Virus record (IMG/VR): IMGVR_UViG_3300028581_003249
Coordinates: 1-22,578 of that record
From: a virus
Length of the DNA: 22,578 nucleotides
Strand: one strand, 5' to 3'
The position numbers were made by a program, and so were the translations under genes. A model generated the notes under the pieces. It was not told the DNA's origin and searched no databases. It worked only from the letters and a program-made list of their open reading frames with translations. Of the stretch, positions 5,944-19,500 are shown piece by piece (position 1 is the first letter of the stretch; each line of letters starts with the position of its first letter).

Positions 5944-5958
5944 GGGACCATGGTCGCG

Positions 5959-5976
5959 GGAGCGTCACCCGAAGCG
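5959..5976. repeat. 18-base direct repeat, copy 2
   Basis: Identical to 3584-3601. On the minus strand it reads CGCTTCGGGTGACGCTCC and ends 16 bases before the ATG of the 79-aa gene. A related sequence (TTTCGGTGACGCAGCGGCGACCAT region, 12319-12342) stands at nearly the same distance before the ATG at 12312. This suggests a leader or operator element. Confidence 0.5.
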
Positions 5977-6368: not shown

Positions 6369-6443
6369 TGGCCGCGCTCCTTTCGCAGCGAGGCTGCGGT
6401 CCGTGGCGGGACCAGCGCCTCGCACTTCCTCCTGAGACCCTCT

Positions 6444-6572
6444 TGGACCTTGGTGATGCGCCAGCCGGGAGGCTTCTCCTTGACGCTGGCGTTCAGCACC
6501 TGTCGGTGAGGTCCGCGTTGCCGCCGAGCCGCCCGCGCCCCTCCTTGAGCACGTCCACGAGCATCATCGAGG
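6444..6572 (-). pseudogene. Relic of a terL 3' end
   Basis: 129 bases align with 8081-8210, inside the 3' part of the intact large-terminase gene. The hand alignment shows about 15 mismatches and one missing base over 130 positions, about 88 percent identity. The peptide 'QVLNASVKEKPPGWRITKVQ' corresponds to 'QVLNAGVKETPHGWRVTKVQ' of TerL residues 459-478. The one-base deletion near 6503 shifts the frame, so the fragment cannot encode a continuous terminase end. Homology stops abruptly on both sides. The relic is in the same orientation as terL and lies on the far side of the transporter gene. The rest of 6276-6653 holds only the two promoter regions. Confidence 0.85.
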
Positions 6573-6603
6573 AGCAGGGTGCAGCTGAAGCCGGGTCCTG
6601 ACG

Positions 6604-6609
6604 CTATCA
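6604..6609 (+). promoter_or_regulatory. Possible -10 box for the CNNM-family gene
   Basis: TATCAT lies 45 bases upstream of the ATG at 6654, just past the terL relic. No good -35 hexamer is visible at the usual spacing. The ribosome site GGAAGGAAAG (about 6635-6645) is clear. The promoter call is weak. Confidence 0.3.
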
Positions 6610-6653
6610 TTGGGCCCTGCGAACTGGCTTCGACCGGAAGGAAAGAGCACACG

Positions 6654-7952
6654 ATGCTTGTTGAGACCATCGCCCTCTTCCTCTTGATCCTGGTGAACGG
6701 CGCGCTCGCCATGTCTGAGCTGGCCCTCGTCTCATCGCGGAGGAGCCGCCTCGAGCATCAGGCGACTCAGGGCAGCCGTGGTTCCCAGGCGGCGCTGCGC
6801 CTCATCGACGATCCGGGCCGGTTCTTGGCGACGGTGCAGATCGGCATCACGCTCGTGGGCATCGTCGCCGGCGCGTTCGGCGGCGCGACGCTGGGGCGGC
6901 GGATCGGAGACTGGCTGAATGAGATCCCGTGGATCTCGCCCCATGGCCAGCTCGTCGGCATGACTGTCACCGTAGCCGCCATCACCTACCTGTCGCTGAT
7001 CCTCGGCGAGCTCGTGCCCAAGCGCGTCGCTCTGGCCCAGCCCGAACGGACCGCCTCCCTCGTGGCGAGACCGATCGAGGTGCTTTCGAAGATCGCCATA
7101 CCGGCGGTGTGGGTGCTCCACGCCTCCACCGAGAGCGTCCTGAAGGCTCTTCGGCTGTCGGGCGTCCGGGAGACGACGATCACGGAGGACGAGGTCAAGT
7201 CCCTGATCGCCGAAGGCACGCAAGCCGGTGTCTTCGTCCCGCAGGAACAGGAGATGATCGAAGGCGTGCTTCGCCTGGCTGATCGCTCCGTCAGGGTCAT
7301 CATGACGCCTCGCGCCAACGTCGTCTGGGTCGACGTGAGCTCCGACCGGGATGCCATCCTTGGCATGGTCGAGGCGCATCGCTTCTCGCGCCTGCTGGTG
7401 TGTGACGGGACCCTGGACCGGCCCATCGGATTCGTCCACACCAAGGACCTCCTTCCCGGGGCTCTCCGCAAAGGCGACGTCACTGCCCTGCGCAGTCTGA
7501 CGGGCCCCCTGCTGTGCGTGACGGACCGCACGCCCGTCCTTCGCCTTCTCAGTCGATTCAAGAAGGAGGGCATCCATAACGCGGTGGTGGTCGACGAGTA
7601 CGGCATGACGGAGGGCGTGGTGACCCTGACCGACGTCATCGAGGCCATTGCGGGGGATCTTCCGGAGCGCGGCGAAGCCAACGAAGCTCAGATGGTACGA
7701 AGAGACGACGGCTCGTGGCTTGCGGACGGGATGACGCCGACCGACGAGGTGGAGAGCGCCACGGGGATCGACATGGGAGATGAGGTCGAGACGCTCGCGG
7801 GCTTCGTGCTGGAGCATCTGGAGCGAATACCGGAGACCGGCGCACACTTCGAGTGCGGAGGCGCGCGTTTCGAGGTCGTCGACATGGACGGCAACCGCAT
7901 CGACAAGGTGCTCATCCACGTGAGCCGGAGCCACGCCCAGACGGACGGGTGA
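6654..7952 (+). CDS. CNNM/CorC (HlyC) family membrane transporter
   Basis: Integral membrane protein of the hemolysin C/CorC family, whose members are linked to magnesium or other divalent-cation transport. The 432-residue protein has the full three-part layout. An N-terminal CNNM (DUF21) domain of about 190 residues begins with the helix 'ETIALFLLILVNGALAMSELAL' region and includes 'VQIGITLVGIVAGAFGGATL' and 'LILGELVPKRVAL'. A CBS-domain pair follows at about 210-335 ('RVIMTPRANVVWVDV', 'HNAVVVDEYGMTEGVVTLTD'). A CorC/HlyC C-terminal domain spans about 350-425 ('DEVETLAGFVLEHLERIPE'). I chose ATG 6654 because a GGAAGGAAAG site precedes it and the first helix starts there. It is on the opposite strand to the phage genes, ends 26 bases from the terL stop, and is flanked by the terL relic. 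It looks like a bacterial gene carried as cargo; GCCGGC is rare in it compared with phage genes. Confidence 0.93.
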   Translation: MLVETIALFLLILVNGALAMSELALVSSRRSRLEHQATQGSRGSQAALRLIDDPGRFLATVQIGITLVGIVAGAFGGATLGRRIGDWLNEIPWISPHGQLVGMTVTVAAITYLSLILGELVPKRVALAQPERTASLVARPIEVLSKIAIPAVWVLHASTESVLKALRLSGVRETTITEDEVKSLIAEGTQAGVFVPQEQEMIEGVLRLADRSVRVIMTPRANVVWVDVSSDRDAILGMVEAHRFSRLLVCDGTLDRPIGFVHTKDLLPGALRKGDVTALRSLTGPLLCVTDRTPVLRLLSRFKKEGIHNAVVVDEYGMTEGVVTLTDVIEAIAGDLPERGEANEAQMVRRDDGSWLADGMTPTDEVESATGIDMGDEVETLAGFVLEHLERIPETGAHFECGGARFEVVDMDGNRIDKVLIHVSRSHAQTDG

Positions 7953-11943: not shown

Positions 11944-12312
11944 TCAGTCCTTTCCGAGAGTCTCGTTGATGGCGGAGTCGAGCGCCTGCGCGACGCGCGT
12001 GCAGCGCCAGGCGAGCGCCGGCCTGGCGTCGACGCCGAGCCGCGCGAAGACGCCGGCGAGCGTCTTGGCCTCGAGGAACGCGCGCGCTACCTGCTCGTCA
12101 GTCGCGGCCTTCGGCGCCGGGTGTGCGTGGACGACCGGCTCGAGCGGAGCGCCCTCGGCCTCGAACTCGGCGCGCACGACCGCCGAGGCCTGGCGGGCTC
12201 GGCTTGCGGCCTTGCGGCAGACGGCGTTGCAGTAGCGTGGCGTCGGCCCGCGGGACCCTCGCTGGATCGCGCGGCCACACCACTCGCACAGCAGGATCTC
12301 GAGCTTGACCAT
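11944..12312 (-). CDS. Small Cys-motif (zinc-finger-like) protein, 122 aa
   Basis: Function unknown. An N-terminal zinc-binding pattern is clear: 'CEWCG' (residues 9-13) and 'RYCNAVCRKAA' (26-36), giving a CxxC...CxxxC cluster followed by Arg/Lys residues. The rest is helical ('QASAVVRAEFEAEG', 'EQVARAFLEAKTLAGVFARLG', 'AWRCTRVAQALDSAINETLG'). This looks like a small DNA-binding or adaptor protein, of the kind found near phage methylase genes. ATG at 12312 has only a weak ribosome site (CGAGG). It is the first gene of the packaging operon after the divergent space before mod. The GGTGACGC element lies about 20 bases upstream. Confidence 0.8.
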   Translation of the reverse strand: MVKLEILLCEWCGRAIQRGSRGPTPRYCNAVCRKAASRARQASAVVRAEFEAEGAPLEPVVHAHPAPKAATDEQVARAFLEAKTLAGVFARLGVDARPALAWRCTRVAQALDSAINETLGKD

Positions 12313-12610: not shown

Positions 12611-14719
12611 ATGGCGGTGATTGACGACCTGTTGTCGCACGTCAGCGACGACGGGCTTCGCACCCAACTGTCGGAGGCTGTGGCGCACCTACGGAGGCGG
12701 AAGAAGTTCGGCCTAGTCTTCGAAGAGCACATCCCCGAGACCGTCGTTCTCCCTGCTGCCGGCCTTCGAGAGGGCAGCGCGGTCATGCTGCGATGCGAGC
12801 CGAAGGACAAGACTCGGTACATAGTCGAAAGCATCGCCGGCGCTCAGGCCAAGATCACGGCCGGCGATGGGACTCCCTCGCGCAAGGTAGGTGTTGACGG
12901 TCTTCTTGTGCTCAAGCCTTTTGGGGAGCCTGTCTATCCGGTCCTGCGCCAGACTGGCAGCATCGATCGCAACCCGGACCTGCCCTACCACGCAGTCATC
13001 AACGGCGAGAACTTCCACGCGCTTCAGTTGCTCCTGTTCGCCCACGAGGGCCAGGTCGACTGCATCTACATCGACCCGCCATACAACACCGGAGCTCGCG
13101 ACTGGAAGTACAACAACGCTTTCGTGGACGCGCAGGACAGCTGGCGCCACTCCAAGTGGCTGTCGTTCATGGAGAAGCGGCTTCGGTTGGCGAAGAAGCT
13201 GCTGAAGCCCGACGGCGTCCTCATCATCACGATTGACGAGCACGAGGTTCATCACTTGGGCGTCCTTTTGGCGCAGGTCTTCCCTGAGTACCTGCGACAC
13301 ATGGTCAGCGTCGTAATCAACCCCAAGGGCACCGGCAAGGTGAACTTCGGTCGTGTCGATGAGTACGCCTTCTTCGTGATTCCGGACACCGGCGCCTCTC
13401 TTGTCAGCGTGCCGGTCGGCGCAACGGCCGTCGTCGTCGAAGACGACGCAGAGGATTCCGGAGGCGACGAGGAGGACGCCGGCGAGCCGAGGGAGGCAAT
13501 CGAGGGAGCCGGCGACGAGAATCTGCCTTTCCCAGCCGGCGAACGAGCGATGTGGGAGCTCCGTCATGCTCGTCGCCGTGGTGGCGAGTCGTCGTATCGG
13601 TCGCAACGTCCCAATCAGTTCTACGCGCTGTACGTTGACGAGTCCGCCCGCCGTGTTGTGCGGGCAGGGCCTAGTCTGAGCCTCGATGAGGACCCCGACT
13701 TCGGGGAGATTGACGGGCTGAAGCCGATCTGGCCCATAGATCGTGAGGGCAATCATCGCTGCTGGCGATACGTCCCCACGAGTATGCAAGAGCTCATCGA
13801 TGGTGGCTTCGTGGTGATGGGACGGCACAACGCCGCACAGGACACATACACCGTGAACTACTGGGTGAGAAAGACGACGTCGAGGAAGCCGAAGACCGTT
13901 TGGTGGCACACGTCTCACGACGCGGGCACCCACGGCACGACTCTCCTTCACGCGTTCTTGGGCCGCAGGCAAGCATTCAACTTCCCGAAATCGATCTACG
14001 CCGTCCGTGACGCGTTGGCGCTTGTGGTGAGGAATCGCCCCGACGCACTGATCGTCGACTTCTTCGCGGGATCTGGCACCACCCTGCACGCTGCCGCTCT
14101 CCTGAACACCGCGGACGGCGGCCGGCGCCGCGTCATCCTCGTGACCAACAACGAGGTAGACGAGAAGACCGCGAAGGCCCTCAACAAGAAGGGGCAGTTT
14201 GTGGGCGACGAGGACTTCGAAGCTCACGGCATTGCACACGCCGTGACGATCCCTCGGGTCCAAGCTGCGCTATCCGGCGTGCGCCAGGACGGAACACCTG
14301 TGCCCGGGAAGTACATCGGGGGGCGGAAGTTCGCCTCCGGGCTGGCCGGCAACGCAGCGTTCTTCGACCTGTGCTATGAGGACGCGGACTTGCTTGAGAC
14401 AGGCACGCACTTCGACGACATAGTCCCCCTGTTGTGGCTTGCCGCCGGGTGCTACGGAGACCCCGGCCGGCTGGAGGCAGGCGAGGACTGGTTGATGCCG
14501 AAGGGGTCGCCGTTCGCCGTTCTGCTTGACGAAGACCGCTTCCGCGGCTTTCTCGCCGAACTGGCGAAGCGTCCCGACATTGACCACGTCTGGCTCGTAA
14601 CCGACAGTGAGAATGCGTTCGCGCGCATGCGGAGCCGAGTCCCGGCCGGCCGGTCTGTCGGCATGTTGTACCGCGACTACCTGCGCAACTTCAGGATCAA
14701 CGCGCGAGTTGCCCGATGA
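12611..14719 (+). CDS. mod: Type III restriction-modification DNA methyltransferase (Mod)
   Basis: N6-adenine methyltransferase and recognition subunit of a type III restriction system. The 702-residue protein has motif IV in 'IYIDPPYNTG' (153-161), then a long target-recognition region (about 240-460), then the SAM-binding 'DFFAGSGTTLHAA' (483-495). This order is beta class, as in known Mod proteins. A charged acidic insert (about 276-304) lies in the recognition region. About 150 C-terminal residues ('AFFDLCYEDADLLETG...') likely contact Res. The start ATG at 12611 has little ribosome-site signal; the reading frame has no better start nearby. Its stop overlaps the res start by four bases (ATGA). 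The gene is on the opposite strand to the phage genes and appears lower in GC, so it is probably acquired defence cargo. The methylation site cannot be read from sequence. Confidence 0.93.
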   Translation: MAVIDDLLSHVSDDGLRTQLSEAVAHLRRRKKFGLVFEEHIPETVVLPAAGLREGSAVMLRCEPKDKTRYIVESIAGAQAKITAGDGTPSRKVGVDGLLVLKPFGEPVYPVLRQTGSIDRNPDLPYHAVINGENFHALQLLLFAHEGQVDCIYIDPPYNTGARDWKYNNAFVDAQDSWRHSKWLSFMEKRLRLAKKLLKPDGVLIITIDEHEVHHLGVLLAQVFPEYLRHMVSVVINPKGTGKVNFGRVDEYAFFVIPDTGASLVSVPVGATAVVVEDDAEDSGGDEEDAGEPREAIEGAGDENLPFPAGERAMWELRHARRRGGESSYRSQRPNQFYALYVDESARRVVRAGPSLSLDEDPDFGEIDGLKPIWPIDREGNHRCWRYVPTSMQELIDGGFVVMGRHNAAQDTYTVNYWVRKTTSRKPKTVWWHTSHDAGTHGTTLLHAFLGRRQAFNFPKSIYAVRDALALVVRNRPDALIVDFFAGSGTTLHAAALLNTADGGRRRVILVTNNEVDEKTAKALNKKGQFVGDEDFEAHGIAHAVTIPRVQAALSGVRQDGTPVPGKYIGGRKFASGLAGNAAFFDLCYEDADLLETGTHFDDIVPLLWLAAGCYGDPGRLEAGEDWLMPKGSPFAVLLDEDRFRGFLAELAKRPDIDHVWLVTDSENAFARMRSRVPAGRSVGMLYRDYLRNFRINARVAR

Positions 14720-17274
14720 GGGTTGTCCTCAAAGACTTCCAGTCGGATGACCTCGTCGAGCTCCTCGACTCGTTCGCTGACGCTCACCAAGTCCATCGTG
14801 CGTCGGCACTTCTGCTGAACGCTCCAACTGGTGCCGGAAAGACCCTCATGGCGACTGCGTTCATTGAGGCTGTGCTCGACGGTACGGAAGAAAGCCCCGG
14901 CGATCCGAGCGTCACGGTTGTTTGGCTGACCGACCAGCCTGAGCTCAACAAGCAGACCCGGGAGAAGATGCTGCGGACTTCGAGCGTCTTGACGTCTGAC
15001 GACTTGATCATCATCGACGGGTCTCTGGACGCCGAGGCTTTGACTCCCGGAAGGGTGTACTTCCTCAACACTCAGAAACTCGCAACGACTAGCTCCCTTG
15101 TGAGGGCTGGCGATGACAGGACGTTCACCCTGTGGGCGACCTTGGCGAACACCGTGAATCGCGCTCCGGACAAGTTCCTGCTGGTGGTAGACGAGGCGCA
15201 CAGAGGCACGAAGGGCAACGACGCCGCCGAAGCCGAGTCCATCATGCAGAAGTTCCTCAAGGGCAGTGCGGGAGAGATACCCATGGTGCCGCTTGTGGTC
15301 GGGATCAGCGCAACGCCCGATCGTTTCAGGGGGCTTTGCGCGGATACGAATCGTCCTCTCTTTGCGGTTGATGTAGACCCAGAGCGGGTGCGCGAATCCG
15401 GGCTTCTCAAGGAGTACGTGGACCTCTACCATCCCGAACAGATTCAGCCCGGCCAAGCCACGATGCTGACGCAGGCCGTGGGGGCATGGAGGGAATACGC
15501 CTCGCGCTGGAGTGCCTACGGTCTCGCCGAGAGCGAGCAGGTTCCTCGCCCCGTGCTGCTGGTGCAGGTTGAAGACGCGAGGGCGGGCGCATCGGGTGCA
15601 TCGTCGACCGATCTTGGGATGGTGGTCGCAACGCTCGCCAAGGAACTCGGTCAGGAGGCCGAGGGGGACTGGCTCGCTCATGCCTTCCAAGACGACACAG
15701 ACCTGTCCGTCGCGGGCCACACTGTTCGTCACCTTGCACCATCAGCGATTGACGATGACCCAGACGTCAAGGTGGTGCTCTTCAAGACGAGCTTGAATAC
15801 GGGCTGGGACTGCCCACGGGCCGAAGTCATGGTGTCATTCCGGCGAGCCAAGGACGAGACCAACATCGCGCAACTCGTCGGCCGCATGGTGCGGGCGCCG
15901 CTAGCTCGACGAATCGACGCGGACGAGCACCTGAACACGGTTGCCTTGTATCTGCCGTTCTATGACCGGGCAACGGTGGAAAAGGTGGTCAACAGGCTCA
16001 CCCAGCCGGACGCTGGCGTTCCTCCGACCTCGGCCCGGGAAGGCGAAGATACTGTCACGCTGACTCGCGCCGCCGACAAGGCCGAATGCTTCGAGCTGCT
16101 CGAGCGACTGCCCACGGAGACCGTGCCGCGAGTCCGACCGACTAAGCCAGTGCCGAGAGTCGCGAGATTAGCTGCACTGCTTGCGGAGATGGCACTCGAG
16201 ACGGATCCGGTCAAGACGTATCGGGGTCGTCTCGTGCAGGTCCTCATGCAAGAACGAGAGAGATTGAGTGGTGACGCCGACTTCAAGAAGCTCATGGATG
16301 AGGGCGCCGTTCTCGACATCCGCCTTCGCCGCGTCGCTTACGGGACGACTCAGGCTGCCGAGCAGGCGGAGCCCGTGGCTGCGGGTGACGCAGACGCCGA
16401 TGTGGACGACCAGGTCGTGTCGGAAGACACAATCCCCGGTCTGGTGCACGCCTCCATCGCCGAACAGGATCTTGAAGACCTGAGCAACCTAGCCGGCAAA
16501 CGGCTCGGCGAAGGTCTGCACAAGGAATACATCCGTGACCGGCTGGCGACAGGGGCCGTGTCCGCTCGCGTAGCGAAGCTCGAGGTGCACGCACTCGTGG
16601 CAACACCAGGTGTAGCGACCAAGGTTGACGCGGCAGCGGACGCGCAAAGGCGAGAATGGGTCGACGCCTACAAAGCCACCATCAATGCCGGCGACGAGAG
16701 GTACGTGCAGGCGCTCCGAGAAATCGAAGCAGCCGGTTCAAGGCCCGAGACCACGACAATCGTCGCCCCCCAGAGCATTGAGTGGTCCAAGGCCGAGACG
16801 ACATGGAAGAAGCACCTCTACGTTGGCGAAGATGGAACCTTCCCTGATGACTTCGCGAAGTCCAGCTGGGAACGGCGAGTGGTCGAGACGGAGACTGCGA
16901 GAGATGACATCGTCGGCTGGTTCCGCAATCCCGACCGAAAGCCATGGTCTCTGTGCATCGCGAGACAGGCCGGCATGAAGTGGGTGCCGTTCTATCCGGA
17001 CTTCATCCTCTTCAGAAGGACCCCCAGCGGGATCATTGCGGACATTGTGGACCCGCACTTGCTGTCCGCTGAGGACATGCCGCAGCGGGCCGTTGAGCTG
17101 GCCAGGTATGCCCAAGATCAGAGTCAGCACTATGGACGAATCGAAATGGTTCTCTTTGAGGGTCCCAGCGACCAGAATGGCAAACGGCTTGACCTAAGCA
17201 GCGAGGCCGTTCGCGCCGCCGTGGCCAACGTCGCCACGTCGGATCAGCTCAAAGCTCTTTTCGCGAGCGTCTAG
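14716..17274 (+). CDS. res: Type III restriction enzyme helicase/nuclease subunit (Res)
   Basis: ATP-dependent translocase and nuclease that cuts unmodified DNA together with Mod. The 852-residue protein has an SF2 helicase core: Walker A 'APTGAGKT' (36-43), 'VVDEAH' (157-162), 'GISATPDR' (196-203), 'NTGWDCPRAE' (361-370) and motif VI 'QLVGRMVRAP' (386-395). A long middle region follows. A C-terminal nuclease-like region contains 'FYPDFILFRR' (Pro761-Asp762) and then 'IIADIVDPH' (773-781). A canonical PD-(D/E)XK site would have Asp/Glu-x-Lys in this second strand; here the lysine place is not obvious. Related Res proteins I recall often have 'LEPH' or 'DPH' here, so this may be a subfamily trait and not damage. 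It is coupled to mod by ATGA. A stem-loop follows the stop within 20 bases. Confidence 0.92.
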   Translation: MRVVLKDFQSDDLVELLDSFADAHQVHRASALLLNAPTGAGKTLMATAFIEAVLDGTEESPGDPSVTVVWLTDQPELNKQTREKMLRTSSVLTSDDLIIIDGSLDAEALTPGRVYFLNTQKLATTSSLVRAGDDRTFTLWATLANTVNRAPDKFLLVVDEAHRGTKGNDAAEAESIMQKFLKGSAGEIPMVPLVVGISATPDRFRGLCADTNRPLFAVDVDPERVRESGLLKEYVDLYHPEQIQPGQATMLTQAVGAWREYASRWSAYGLAESEQVPRPVLLVQVEDARAGASGASSTDLGMVVATLAKELGQEAEGDWLAHAFQDDTDLSVAGHTVRHLAPSAIDDDPDVKVVLFKTSLNTGWDCPRAEVMVSFRRAKDETNIAQLVGRMVRAPLARRIDADEHLNTVALYLPFYDRATVEKVVNRLTQPDAGVPPTSAREGEDTVTLTRAADKAECFELLERLPTETVPRVRPTKPVPRVARLAALLAEMALETDPVKTYRGRLVQVLMQERERLSGDADFKKLMDEGAVLDIRLRRVAYGTTQAAEQAEPVAAGDADADVDDQVVSEDTIPGLVHASIAEQDLEDLSNLAGKRLGEGLHKEYIRDRLATGAVSARVAKLEVHALVATPGVATKVDAAADAQRREWVDAYKATINAGDERYVQALREIEAAGSRPETTTIVAPQSIEWSKAETTWKKHLYVGEDGTFPDDFAKSSWERRVVETETARDDIVGWFRNPDRKPWSLCIARQAGMKWVPFYPDFILFRRTPSGIIADIVDPHLLSAEDMPQRAVELARYAQDQSQHYGRIEMVLFEGPSDQNGKRLDLSSEAVRAAVANVATSDQLKALFASV

Positions 17275-17498: not shown

Positions 17499-18791
17499 TC
17501 AACCGCCCAAGGCCGCCGGTACCTCGCGAAGCTCGTTCACGACAATCAGACGGCCGTTGGTCAAGTACCGTGCCAACTCCGCATCGTCGACGTTCCAGGG
17601 CCGACGAACGAGGATCGCGCGACCCGACGAGTTCTCGAGGAACTCGAGCACATTGCCAATGTAATCATCCACCAAGACGTCGACCGCGCAGATGCTCTTG
17701 CCGGCTTCGCGTGTGTTCACGAGCTCGTCTGCGAAGAGGCGCCGTCTTTGTAACCATCGCTCAGTGCCCTCGCGAGCGTCGAGAGGCCTGGCCGTGATTA
17801 CGACAACACGGTGCCTGCGGAAGAGCCGAGCAAGCATTCGTCGCGCTCCCCTGTGAACCGGCATGCTGGCGACGTAGTTGGGGTCGCCTAGTGCCCTGGC
17901 GATTTCCGTCGATATGTCCGACGGGCCGAAGTCGTATCGCCAGTCGACGATATCGTCGTATTCCAGAGCGATGCCAAACTCTTCCTTCACGCGGGGGATC
18001 ACCCCTGTAATCTGGTTTCCCAGCACGCCATCGATGTCGATGCCGATGACGGTGCCAGCGTCCTTGGCGGCCTGTCTGCGCCTCGTTTCTGCCCTGCGTT
18101 CATGTCGGTACAGGCACACAACCGCCAGGAAGGTCAGGATTGAAACGATGTTCAGTGCAGTGCTCGGCCATAGTCGCCAGAGGATCGCGTAGAGGATCAC
18201 CAGGAGACCCAGTGCCCACATGTACTCAAGAATCGGCCTGAGATTGCTTGCCAACGGGCCGTAGGTGCGTCTTCGCGTCACGCCCGACAGCCAATAGACC
18301 CCGAAGACCAGCGGATACCCGAGCAGGTGCCGCCAGATGTCGGCAGACGGGTCAGACTCAAAGAAGGCAATGGTGAACAGCAGATAGGCATACAGGACGA
18401 CGATGACCATGTCCGATCCGAAGCGCGCCCACTCCGTCCAGCCGTAGCGCCTCATGTCATACGGCCGGTCGACCATCGTGAGGTGCCAGTCGTACCAGCT
18501 CATCACCGTTGTGACGTAGACGGCGCACAGCGCCACGATCGCCGCGCTGTGTTCAGTTGGATTGCCGCCTGGGATCGGGTTGATCACGACGGCACGGTAA
18601 GCGACCAGGCTCTGGGCTATGACCAGGGCGAAGACGAACTCGGGCAGCTTGATCAGCTGATCGGATATCTGCCGGGTGTCAAGTGGGCTCATGAGTATCT
18701 CGAAGTTGACTAGGGGCATCGTAGCGTATCGCGCACTTGCTGAGCTGTCCGAAGACGGCCCGCGCTGCCCCGACGAAAAGCGCCATGACAT
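17499..18791 (-). CDS. Multi-pass membrane protein fused to HAD/5'-nucleotidase-like domain
   Basis: Predicted membrane-anchored phosphatase or nucleotidase. About residues 50-230 hold five or six hydrophobic spans ('FVFALVIAQSLVAY', 'AAIVALCAVYVTTVMSW', 'MVIVVLYAYLLFTIAFF', 'LLGYPLVFGVYWLSGV', 'MWALGLLVILYAILW', 'ALNIVSILTFLAVVCLY'). A basic linker ('RHERRAETRRRQAAK') puts the C-terminal domain on the cytoplasmic side. That domain has HAD motif I 'GIDIDGVLGN' (250-259), motif II 'VVVITARP' (329-336), a lysine in 'EAGKSI' (365) and motif IV 'VDVLVDD' (370-376), resembling the NT5C-type 5'-nucleotidase group. The start is uncertain: ATG 18791 overlaps the upstream stop, while ATG 18719 or 18692 would remove a low-information N-terminus. 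It is convergent with the type III system and follows two small genes. I do not know a named family with this exact architecture; substrate unknown. Confidence 0.87.
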   Translation of the reverse strand: MSWRFSSGQRGPSSDSSASARYATMPLVNFEILMSPLDTRQISDQLIKLPEFVFALVIAQSLVAYRAVVINPIPGGNPTEHSAAIVALCAVYVTTVMSWYDWHLTMVDRPYDMRRYGWTEWARFGSDMVIVVLYAYLLFTIAFFESDPSADIWRHLLGYPLVFGVYWLSGVTRRRTYGPLASNLRPILEYMWALGLLVILYAILWRLWPSTALNIVSILTFLAVVCLYRHERRAETRRRQAAKDAGTVIGIDIDGVLGNQITGVIPRVKEEFGIALEYDDIVDWRYDFGPSDISTEIARALGDPNYVASMPVHRGARRMLARLFRRHRVVVITARPLDAREGTERWLQRRRLFADELVNTREAGKSICAVDVLVDDYIGNVLEFLENSSGRAILVRRPWNVDDAELARYLTNGRLIVVNELREVPAALGG

Positions 18792-18979
18792 CAATCCGCG
18801 AGCAGCATCGTCCTAGGGTCGACGAGGAAGTCGCGACCGTCCTCGAGGACGAGGCGCCAGTTGGGCCGCTTTCGCTCGATCTTGGCTACGGGGCAGAGAT
18901 CGCCCCGAGTCGAACGGTAATACACCGGCTTCTTCTTCCATCGGGCTGCTCGACTTAGGCTTACTCGCTCCAAGGTCAC
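18791..18979 (-). CDS. Small basic hypothetical protein, 62 aa
   Basis: Not recognised. The short basic protein has an Arg/Lys-rich N-terminal half ('LSRAARWKKKPVYYRS') and a beta-like C-terminal half ('NWRLVLEDGRDFLVDP'). I use the GTG at 18979, which overlaps the stop of the 118-aa HTH gene as GTGA. A GTG one codon earlier is also possible. Its own stop touches the ATG of the membrane-HAD gene. The chain of overlapping ends is the main argument that it is real. No separate ribosome site is visible, so it probably depends on coupled translation. Confidence 0.6.
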   Translation of the reverse strand: MTLERVSLSRAARWKKKPVYYRSTRGDLCPVAKIERKRPNWRLVLEDGRDFLVDPRTMLLAD

Positions 18980-19332
18980 CACGTTTCATAGTAGAGGAAC
19001 CGGTGGCCCCCGAGAGGGCGATAGACGCTCTCGCCACTCGAGGTGCCATCCTTTGCGTCATCGATGTGGGGCAAGGATTCGCTGCGCGCGGACGGCCTTG
19101 GTGGCTCATCTTGCGCTTCACCCCCCAGAAGGTCGCGCACGATGGGCGCCGTCGGCAGCACAATCCTTCGGCCAATTCGCAGGACAGGCCATGGATACGT
19201 TCCAGCTGCGATGCTCTCGTAGAGCGTGTCACTGCTGCATCCGAGCAGGGGCGCAAGCTCCCGCACGCCAACGGTTGCCCTGGTCTTCAAGTCGTCGAGG
19301 GTCAAGATCGTCTCGGATGACGAGTCCTTCAT
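18976..19332 (-). CDS. Helix-turn-helix (excisionase/AlpA-like) DNA-binding protein, 118 aa
   Basis: Predicted regulator. Residues about 13-65 match the HTH_17-type fold: 'TVGVRELAPLLGCSSDTLYE' forms the helix-turn-helix and 'GTYPWPVLRIGRRIVLPTAPI' the wing. The remaining 50 residues are charged and probably disordered, ending in an aromatic 'GGHRFLYYETW'. ATG 19332 is chosen because GGGAGGTGG stands upstream at a good distance; longer starts lack a ribosome site. It leads a three-gene chain with the 62-aa protein and the membrane-HAD protein through overlapping ends, so it may regulate that unit. An excision function is also possible, but no integrase is in the window. Bases 19333-19500 hold no convincing gene. 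Confidence 0.8.
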   Translation of the reverse strand: MKDSSSETILTLDDLKTRATVGVRELAPLLGCSSDTLYESIAAGTYPWPVLRIGRRIVLPTAPIVRDLLGGEAQDEPPRPSARSESLPHIDDAKDGTSSGESVYRPLGGHRFLYYETW

Positions 19333-19500
19333 GCCGCCCACCTCCCGCGATGCCGATGTGCCCCCGTATTCGCCGCACTTGATGCGTCTCCGCATCGCCA
19401 CGGACAGGGAAGGTCGGACGCAGCAAGTCGACGGGGAAGGGTCTTGCCCTGCTCTGTCTCACGCACGACATGGCAGCCCATTCGCCGCGTGCGAGCCCCC

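Follow-up and report, generated by a model that had tools for sequence, protein, structure and literature searches.

Why a tailed-phage genome should carry a phosphatase fused to a bundle of membrane helices, immediately beside a type III restriction system, is the question raised by the window, the whole stretch of 22,578 nucleotides from virus record IMGVR_UViG_3300028581_003249 that was analysed here. The window also holds genes for an HK97-type capsid, a ClpP-like protease, terminase, holin, RusA and ERF. The gene concerned, here called TM-HAD, had been predicted from sequence to form a defence or superinfection-exclusion module with an HTH protein and a small basic protein. The features that bear on this prediction are the following.

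11944 to 12312, minus strand: conserved phage gene g12312, the far border of a cargo slot (comparison with the related phage G004)
12611 to 14719, plus strand: type III restriction methyltransferase (Mod), in the cargo slot (Pfam, PADLOC/profile matches)
14716 to 17274, plus strand: restriction subunit (Res) of the type III system, running towards the TM-HAD gene (Pfam, PADLOC/profile matches)
17499 to 18791, minus strand: TM-HAD gene (Pfam and PHROG matches, AlphaFold and PDB matches, homolog in genome G079, contig L063)
17502 to 18062, minus strand: HAD phosphatase domain, with DxD (D253, D255), T334, K366, D376-D377 and an RPWN motif (alignment, profile, structure match)
18060 to 18668, minus strand: six-helix membrane domain of no known family (signatures common to both homologs, hydropathy, AlphaFold)
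18791 to 18982, minus strand: 63-aa basic protein, a phage-family gene overlapping the TM-HAD gene (comparison with G004)
18976 to 19401, minus strand: excisionase/MerR-like HTH protein, upstream (profile matches, comparison with G004)

The position of the open reading frame, the order of the genes and their convergence on mod-res are as first described: on the minus strand the HTH, 63-aa and TM-HAD genes follow one another head to tail, each overlapping the next, and run towards the plus-strand mod-res pair, which ends at 17274. Translation could begin at ATG 18791 (430 aa) or TTG 18794 (431 aa), and the ATG is the likelier start because it overlaps the upstream stop codon as TGATG. Residue numbers count from the TTG, so that D253 is the nucleophile called D252 in the original prediction, which counted from the ATG. 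The length of the frame proves nothing, because the sequence is 67% GC and the longest stop-free run in order-1 random sequence of the same composition averages 417 codons. Judged from sequence, TM-HAD is a real gene, the evidence being the domain match, the intact motifs and a full-length homolog of 41% identity. Neither promoter-like sites nor an excess of terminators were found.

The C-terminal part of the protein, about residues 246-431, had been likened to the NT5C-type HAD nucleotidases, and the likeness has been strengthened. Pfam NT5C (PF06941) matches residues 248-404 at E 2.8e-12, with 47.3 bits against a curated cut-off of 24.8, and phrog_420 matches the HAD part at E 4.5e-19. HAD motifs I-IV are all intact (D253-x-D255, T334, K366, D376-D377) and align with those of soluble relatives from actinobacteria and phages, and a profile built from HAD relatives matches 3bwv (1.3e-29) and the human and mouse 5'(3')-deoxyribonucleotidases. 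The AlphaFold model of the domain (pLDDT about 91) has the HAD fold, and it superimposes on 3bwv at Z 19.4 (rmsd 2.2 over 162 residues) and on human mdN and cdN at Z about 17, dehalogenases and other HAD enzymes reaching at most 15. By profile and predicted structure, then, the domain is of the NT5C type, and nucleotidase activity is predicted. NT5C enzymes are normally housekeeping enzymes of nucleotide pools. The deoxyribonucleotidases 3bwv, mdN and cdN share the fold and all catalytic motifs, but they are soluble, single-domain proteins, whereas TM-HAD adds a 240-residue membrane domain in front. A basic stretch, RHERRAETRRR, follows the last helix and by the positive-inside rule would place the HAD domain inside the cell.

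The helices of the membrane domain occupy about residues 40-240. Five or six spans had been proposed, in agreement with hydropathy (five to six in the window protein, six in the G079 homolog) and with the six long helices of the AlphaFold models. Both homologs carry the signatures S-W-Y/F-D-W-H and R-x-x-S-D in this domain. No known sensor domain (CARF, SAVED, TIR and the like) was detected in the protein, and a ComEC-like DUF4131 match on the helices fell below the cut-off and was treated as compositional. The TMEM175 potassium channels, which also have six helices of similar length, bear a weak structural likeness to the bundle: in Foldseek searches with the isolated bundle, bacterial TMEM175 made up four of the top 13 matches, all matches having E of at least 0.16, and the bundle aligns with 5vre at Z 10.1 (rmsd 5.2 over 169), a value that unrelated helical bundles exceed. 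The membrane domain has no match to Pfam TMEM175 (PF06736), hhalign against TMEM175 gave no support, and the RxxxFSD motif of TMEM175 helix 1 is absent from the window and G079 proteins; kinship with TMEM175 is thus not supported by the profile tests.

The fusion of these two parts is very rare, in keeping with the original description of the domain combination as unfamiliar. A full-length homolog, 41% identical across both parts, occurs in one of 396 Actinomycetota genomes (G079), and it is the one other full-length copy in total among roughly 1,000 bacterial genomes. A profile search of the same 396 genomes with the membrane domain alone, which like the full-length search had been proposed as a check, again matched only G079, whose protein retains this domain, fused to HAD, at 38-41% identity; a second search of one actinobacterial class gave the same genomes as the first and adds nothing. 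There were no matches in 299 Pseudomonadota genomes, and tblastn against 50,697 GenBank phages and 72,556 PLSDB plasmids returned no fused homolog, the only matches being soluble nucleotidases of remote similarity (E about 3). Pattern scans with the single protein brought up no relative in IMG/VR or in GTDB genomes, and an IMG/VR scan with a two-sequence alignment found soluble HADs only, IMG/VR having been scanned by exact patterns that may miss distant copies. The motif W[YF]DWH-x6-P[YF] occurs in seven viral contigs of one unrelated family, presumably oxygenase-like by eye, with no similarity to TM-HAD beyond the motif. Soluble HAD relatives of about 200 aa are found in about 20 genomes per sample of roughly 400, and phages often carry soluble NT5C proteins (BFVD list; PHROG 420). 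In a tree the HAD domains of the two fused proteins are sisters (97/92), with long branches nearby that leave the deeper placement of the pair unsure. No PADLOC or NCBIfam defence model matches TM-HAD.

The setting of the gene in the phage genome is clarified by the relative G004 (41.5 kb), with which the window shares the order HNH, RusA, g20469, holin, 63-aa gene, cargo, g12312, ParB-like gene, terS, terL, cargo, portal, ClpP and capsid. Between the 63-aa gene and g12312 the window holds TM-HAD and the type III restriction system, and the same slot of G004 (L091 6199-15954) encodes Vsr endonuclease, C5 methylase, an unknown 260-aa protein, Type ISP-like methylase and PLD-SNF2 helicase. The helicase has DISARM DrmD and an anti-phage PLD protein as relatives. 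Taken together, these occupants mark the slot as a site for restriction or defence cargo. TM-HAD is absent from all sister phages that were searched. The GC3 of TM-HAD, mod and res is 0.73-0.79, against 0.93-0.95 for core phage genes, which fits the expectation for acquired cargo. Prophage hotspots act as reservoirs of defence systems (PMC9122126), and the anti-phage hotspots of P2/P4-type prophages are alike in placing variable cargo, including many restriction-type systems, between two conserved phage genes; they belong to another phage family, however, and the cargo here is TM-HAD with a type III system, or in the sister ISP and PLD-SNF2 genes with a C5 methylase and Vsr. Two incidental features of these genes may be recorded: the G004 slot contains DISARM-like parts in an unrecognised arrangement, and the C terminus of Res, a protein for which no close viral relatives were found, has a nuclease-like motif, PDF...DIVDPH, that lacks the lysine usual in PD-(D/E)xK.

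The second copy of TM-HAD lies on a chromosomal contig of G079, L063, in an element marked by a serine recombinase gene that overlaps tRNA-Ala. After flanking housekeeping genes that we take by eye to be rne, obgE, nadD and others, the order is tRNA-Ala, serine recombinase, a short gene, DNA methyltransferase, a HARE-like winged helix, a large ATPase-like protein, a 97-aa gene and TM-HAD. The methyltransferase is type II-like (PDLC03323, E 2e-113), and the HARE-like winged-helix/HTH protein, a weak match, is encoded in the same operon direction. The large protein (756 aa) has no family match in any library and is GHKL ATPase-like by motif only; one plasmid relative of it adjoins DndB-like and NgoMIV genes. 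The 97-aa gene resembles the N-terminus of larger Streptomyces plasmid proteins, partly annotated as helicases. No phage structural genes were found on the contig. TM-HAD travels on two unrelated elements, both with DNA-methyltransferase systems adjoining. Carriage on a mobile element with restriction or defence neighbours, as originally proposed, is thereby borne out for both known copies, one in a tailed-phage genome and one in a serine-recombinase element at tRNA-Ala, and G004 fills the same phage slot with restriction-type genes; homologs of the fused protein are not found mainly in housekeeping loci, and the soluble HAD relatives are scattered through Actinomycetota. The stretch L063 9473-15491 is in its own right a candidate undescribed restriction or defence operon.

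These comparisons do not support a dedicated three-gene module. The 63-aa protein is 74-75% identical in G004, its only relative in IMG/VR, and that phage has neither a TM-HAD gene nor an HTH gene between holin and 63-aa gene; at the TM-HAD copy in L063 no relative of the HTH or 63-aa protein was found. Because it is present in G004 without TM-HAD and absent near the L063 copy, the 63-aa protein is no partner dedicated to TM-HAD, and the TGATG overlap points to translational coupling within this phage rather than to a conserved module. The 63-aa and HTH genes have a GC3 of 0.73-0.74, the same low level as the cargo, and may also be of outside origin, the 63-aa gene perhaps having been acquired before the split from G004.

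HAD phosphatases are starting to appear in defence. Chp, a membrane-bound HAD phosphatase effector of type III-A CRISPR, lowers ATP and IMP and stops phage growth (PMC12715507), and the validated system DS-9 contains a HAD phosphatase (PMC13092281). Chp is likewise tethered to the membrane, with catalytic D, D, S/T, K and D residues at a presumed cytoplasmic site, but its order is HAD, four helices, CARF, whereas that of TM-HAD is six helices, HAD. The TM-HAD protein ends with the HAD domain and has no CARF match in Pfam or PADLOC, and no cas genes were found among the examined ORFs of the window or L063. The best explanation may be that TM-HAD works like Chp without being a member of the Chp family. 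With the Chp ingredients in reverse order and no CARF, we propose that the membrane domain is both sensor and anchor and that the NT5C domain would serve as a nucleotide phosphatase on activation. The membrane part of Chp is itself unexplained, and why some HAD phosphatases of defence sit in the membrane is a question that the authors of the Chp study name (PMC12715507).

From the predicted fold, motifs and topology, and from the mobile, restriction-linked context that was found, we infer a substrate, a trigger and a role in defence. The six-helix domain would hold an NT5C-type 5'-nucleotidase at the cytoplasmic face of the inner membrane, and TM-HAD is phage cargo, placed beside the type III restriction system in a slot of variable defence genes, that most likely gives the lysogen protection from rival phages. 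Infection would be sensed by the membrane domain, or would free it from inhibition, and the activated HAD domain would go on to strip phosphate from nucleotides, probably (d)NMPs, stopping replication of the invader. We thus tentatively favour a prophage-borne defence or exclusion effector in the form of a membrane-tethered nucleotidase, the defence role being read from association. This reading is now more specific, in that it points to a cargo slot with restriction genes in the sister phage and to a methyltransferase operon at the second element; with only two copies of TM-HAD known, the argument from neighbouring genes has very few data points behind it. If it is right, TM-HAD possibly shuts down cells attacked by rival phages. 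A broader proposal, possible but doubtful, is that the protein represents a class of membrane defence effector not described before: a six-helix sensor or channel domain would exert direct control over the NT5C domain at the C terminus, and phages and integrative elements would have spread this autonomous, CARF-free equivalent of Chp beside restriction systems.

The same fold would suit a metabolic phage gene, a tethered nucleotidase that recycles nucleotides or balances dNTP pools and has no role in defence. Its fold is that of a 5'(3')-deoxyribonucleotidase, soluble NT5C proteins abound in phages, and the second slot of this phage family carries metabolic and transport genes, so that cargo need not mean defence. 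Yet soluble phage nucleotidases need no six-helix anchor, and TM-HAD occupies a slot that G004 fills with restriction genes while its other copy adjoins a methyltransferase operon; a purely metabolic role we consider unlikely. The roles of the two domains might instead be inverted, with the bundle as the killing or pore-forming part and the HAD domain as a regulatory sensor, for example of a nucleotide-gated channel. Point mutants in the HAD site of Chp stayed toxic, and its authors keep open the inverse model in which the membrane part is the effector (PMC12715507). For TM-HAD this arrangement appears improbable, as the likeness of the bundle to TMEM175 on which a channel could be modelled falters on the Foldseek E values, the higher Z of unrelated bundles, the Pfam and hhalign comparisons and the missing RxxxFSD.

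Quite improbable, too, is a role in superinfection exclusion or lysis timing, in which the membrane part would contact the phage's own holin or the machinery of DNA entry and the HAD domain would act on membrane-linked phosphates, not on free nucleotides. HAD phosphatases are promiscuous, and TM-HAD comes after the holin, HTH and 63-aa genes in minus-strand order, but the second copy lies on a contig devoid of phage structural genes, so that a part in phage lysis or exclusion cannot be what the protein does in general. As a CARF-free, six-helix version on a prophage, TM-HAD offers a simple one-gene test of membrane part against phosphatase as effector, and the interval from the 63-aa gene to g12312 gives an anchor for finding more defence cargo in a little-sampled phage family.

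Other variable sites occur in these phages. In the second cargo slot, the gap between terL and portal, the window has a CNNM/CorC (PaeA-like) transporter gene (6579-7952, plus strand), and G004 has Crp, flavodoxin and FMN reductase genes. At 6430-6572, on the far side of the CNNM gene, some 142 nt from the 3' end of terL occur a second time (74-81% to relatives), like an insertion or recombination scar. The sister phage G003 has an insert of about 5 kb between its portal and ClpP protease genes (L003 10294-15533) with ORFs of 525, 541 and 415 aa; the one large ORF of this insert that was searched had no Pfam match. A perfect 26-nt sequence at 5948-5973 of the window, where the portal-side gene cluster starts, is found again at a different place in G003, near the ClpP/capsid junction (L003 16345-16370), and is possibly a shared boundary or regulatory sequence.
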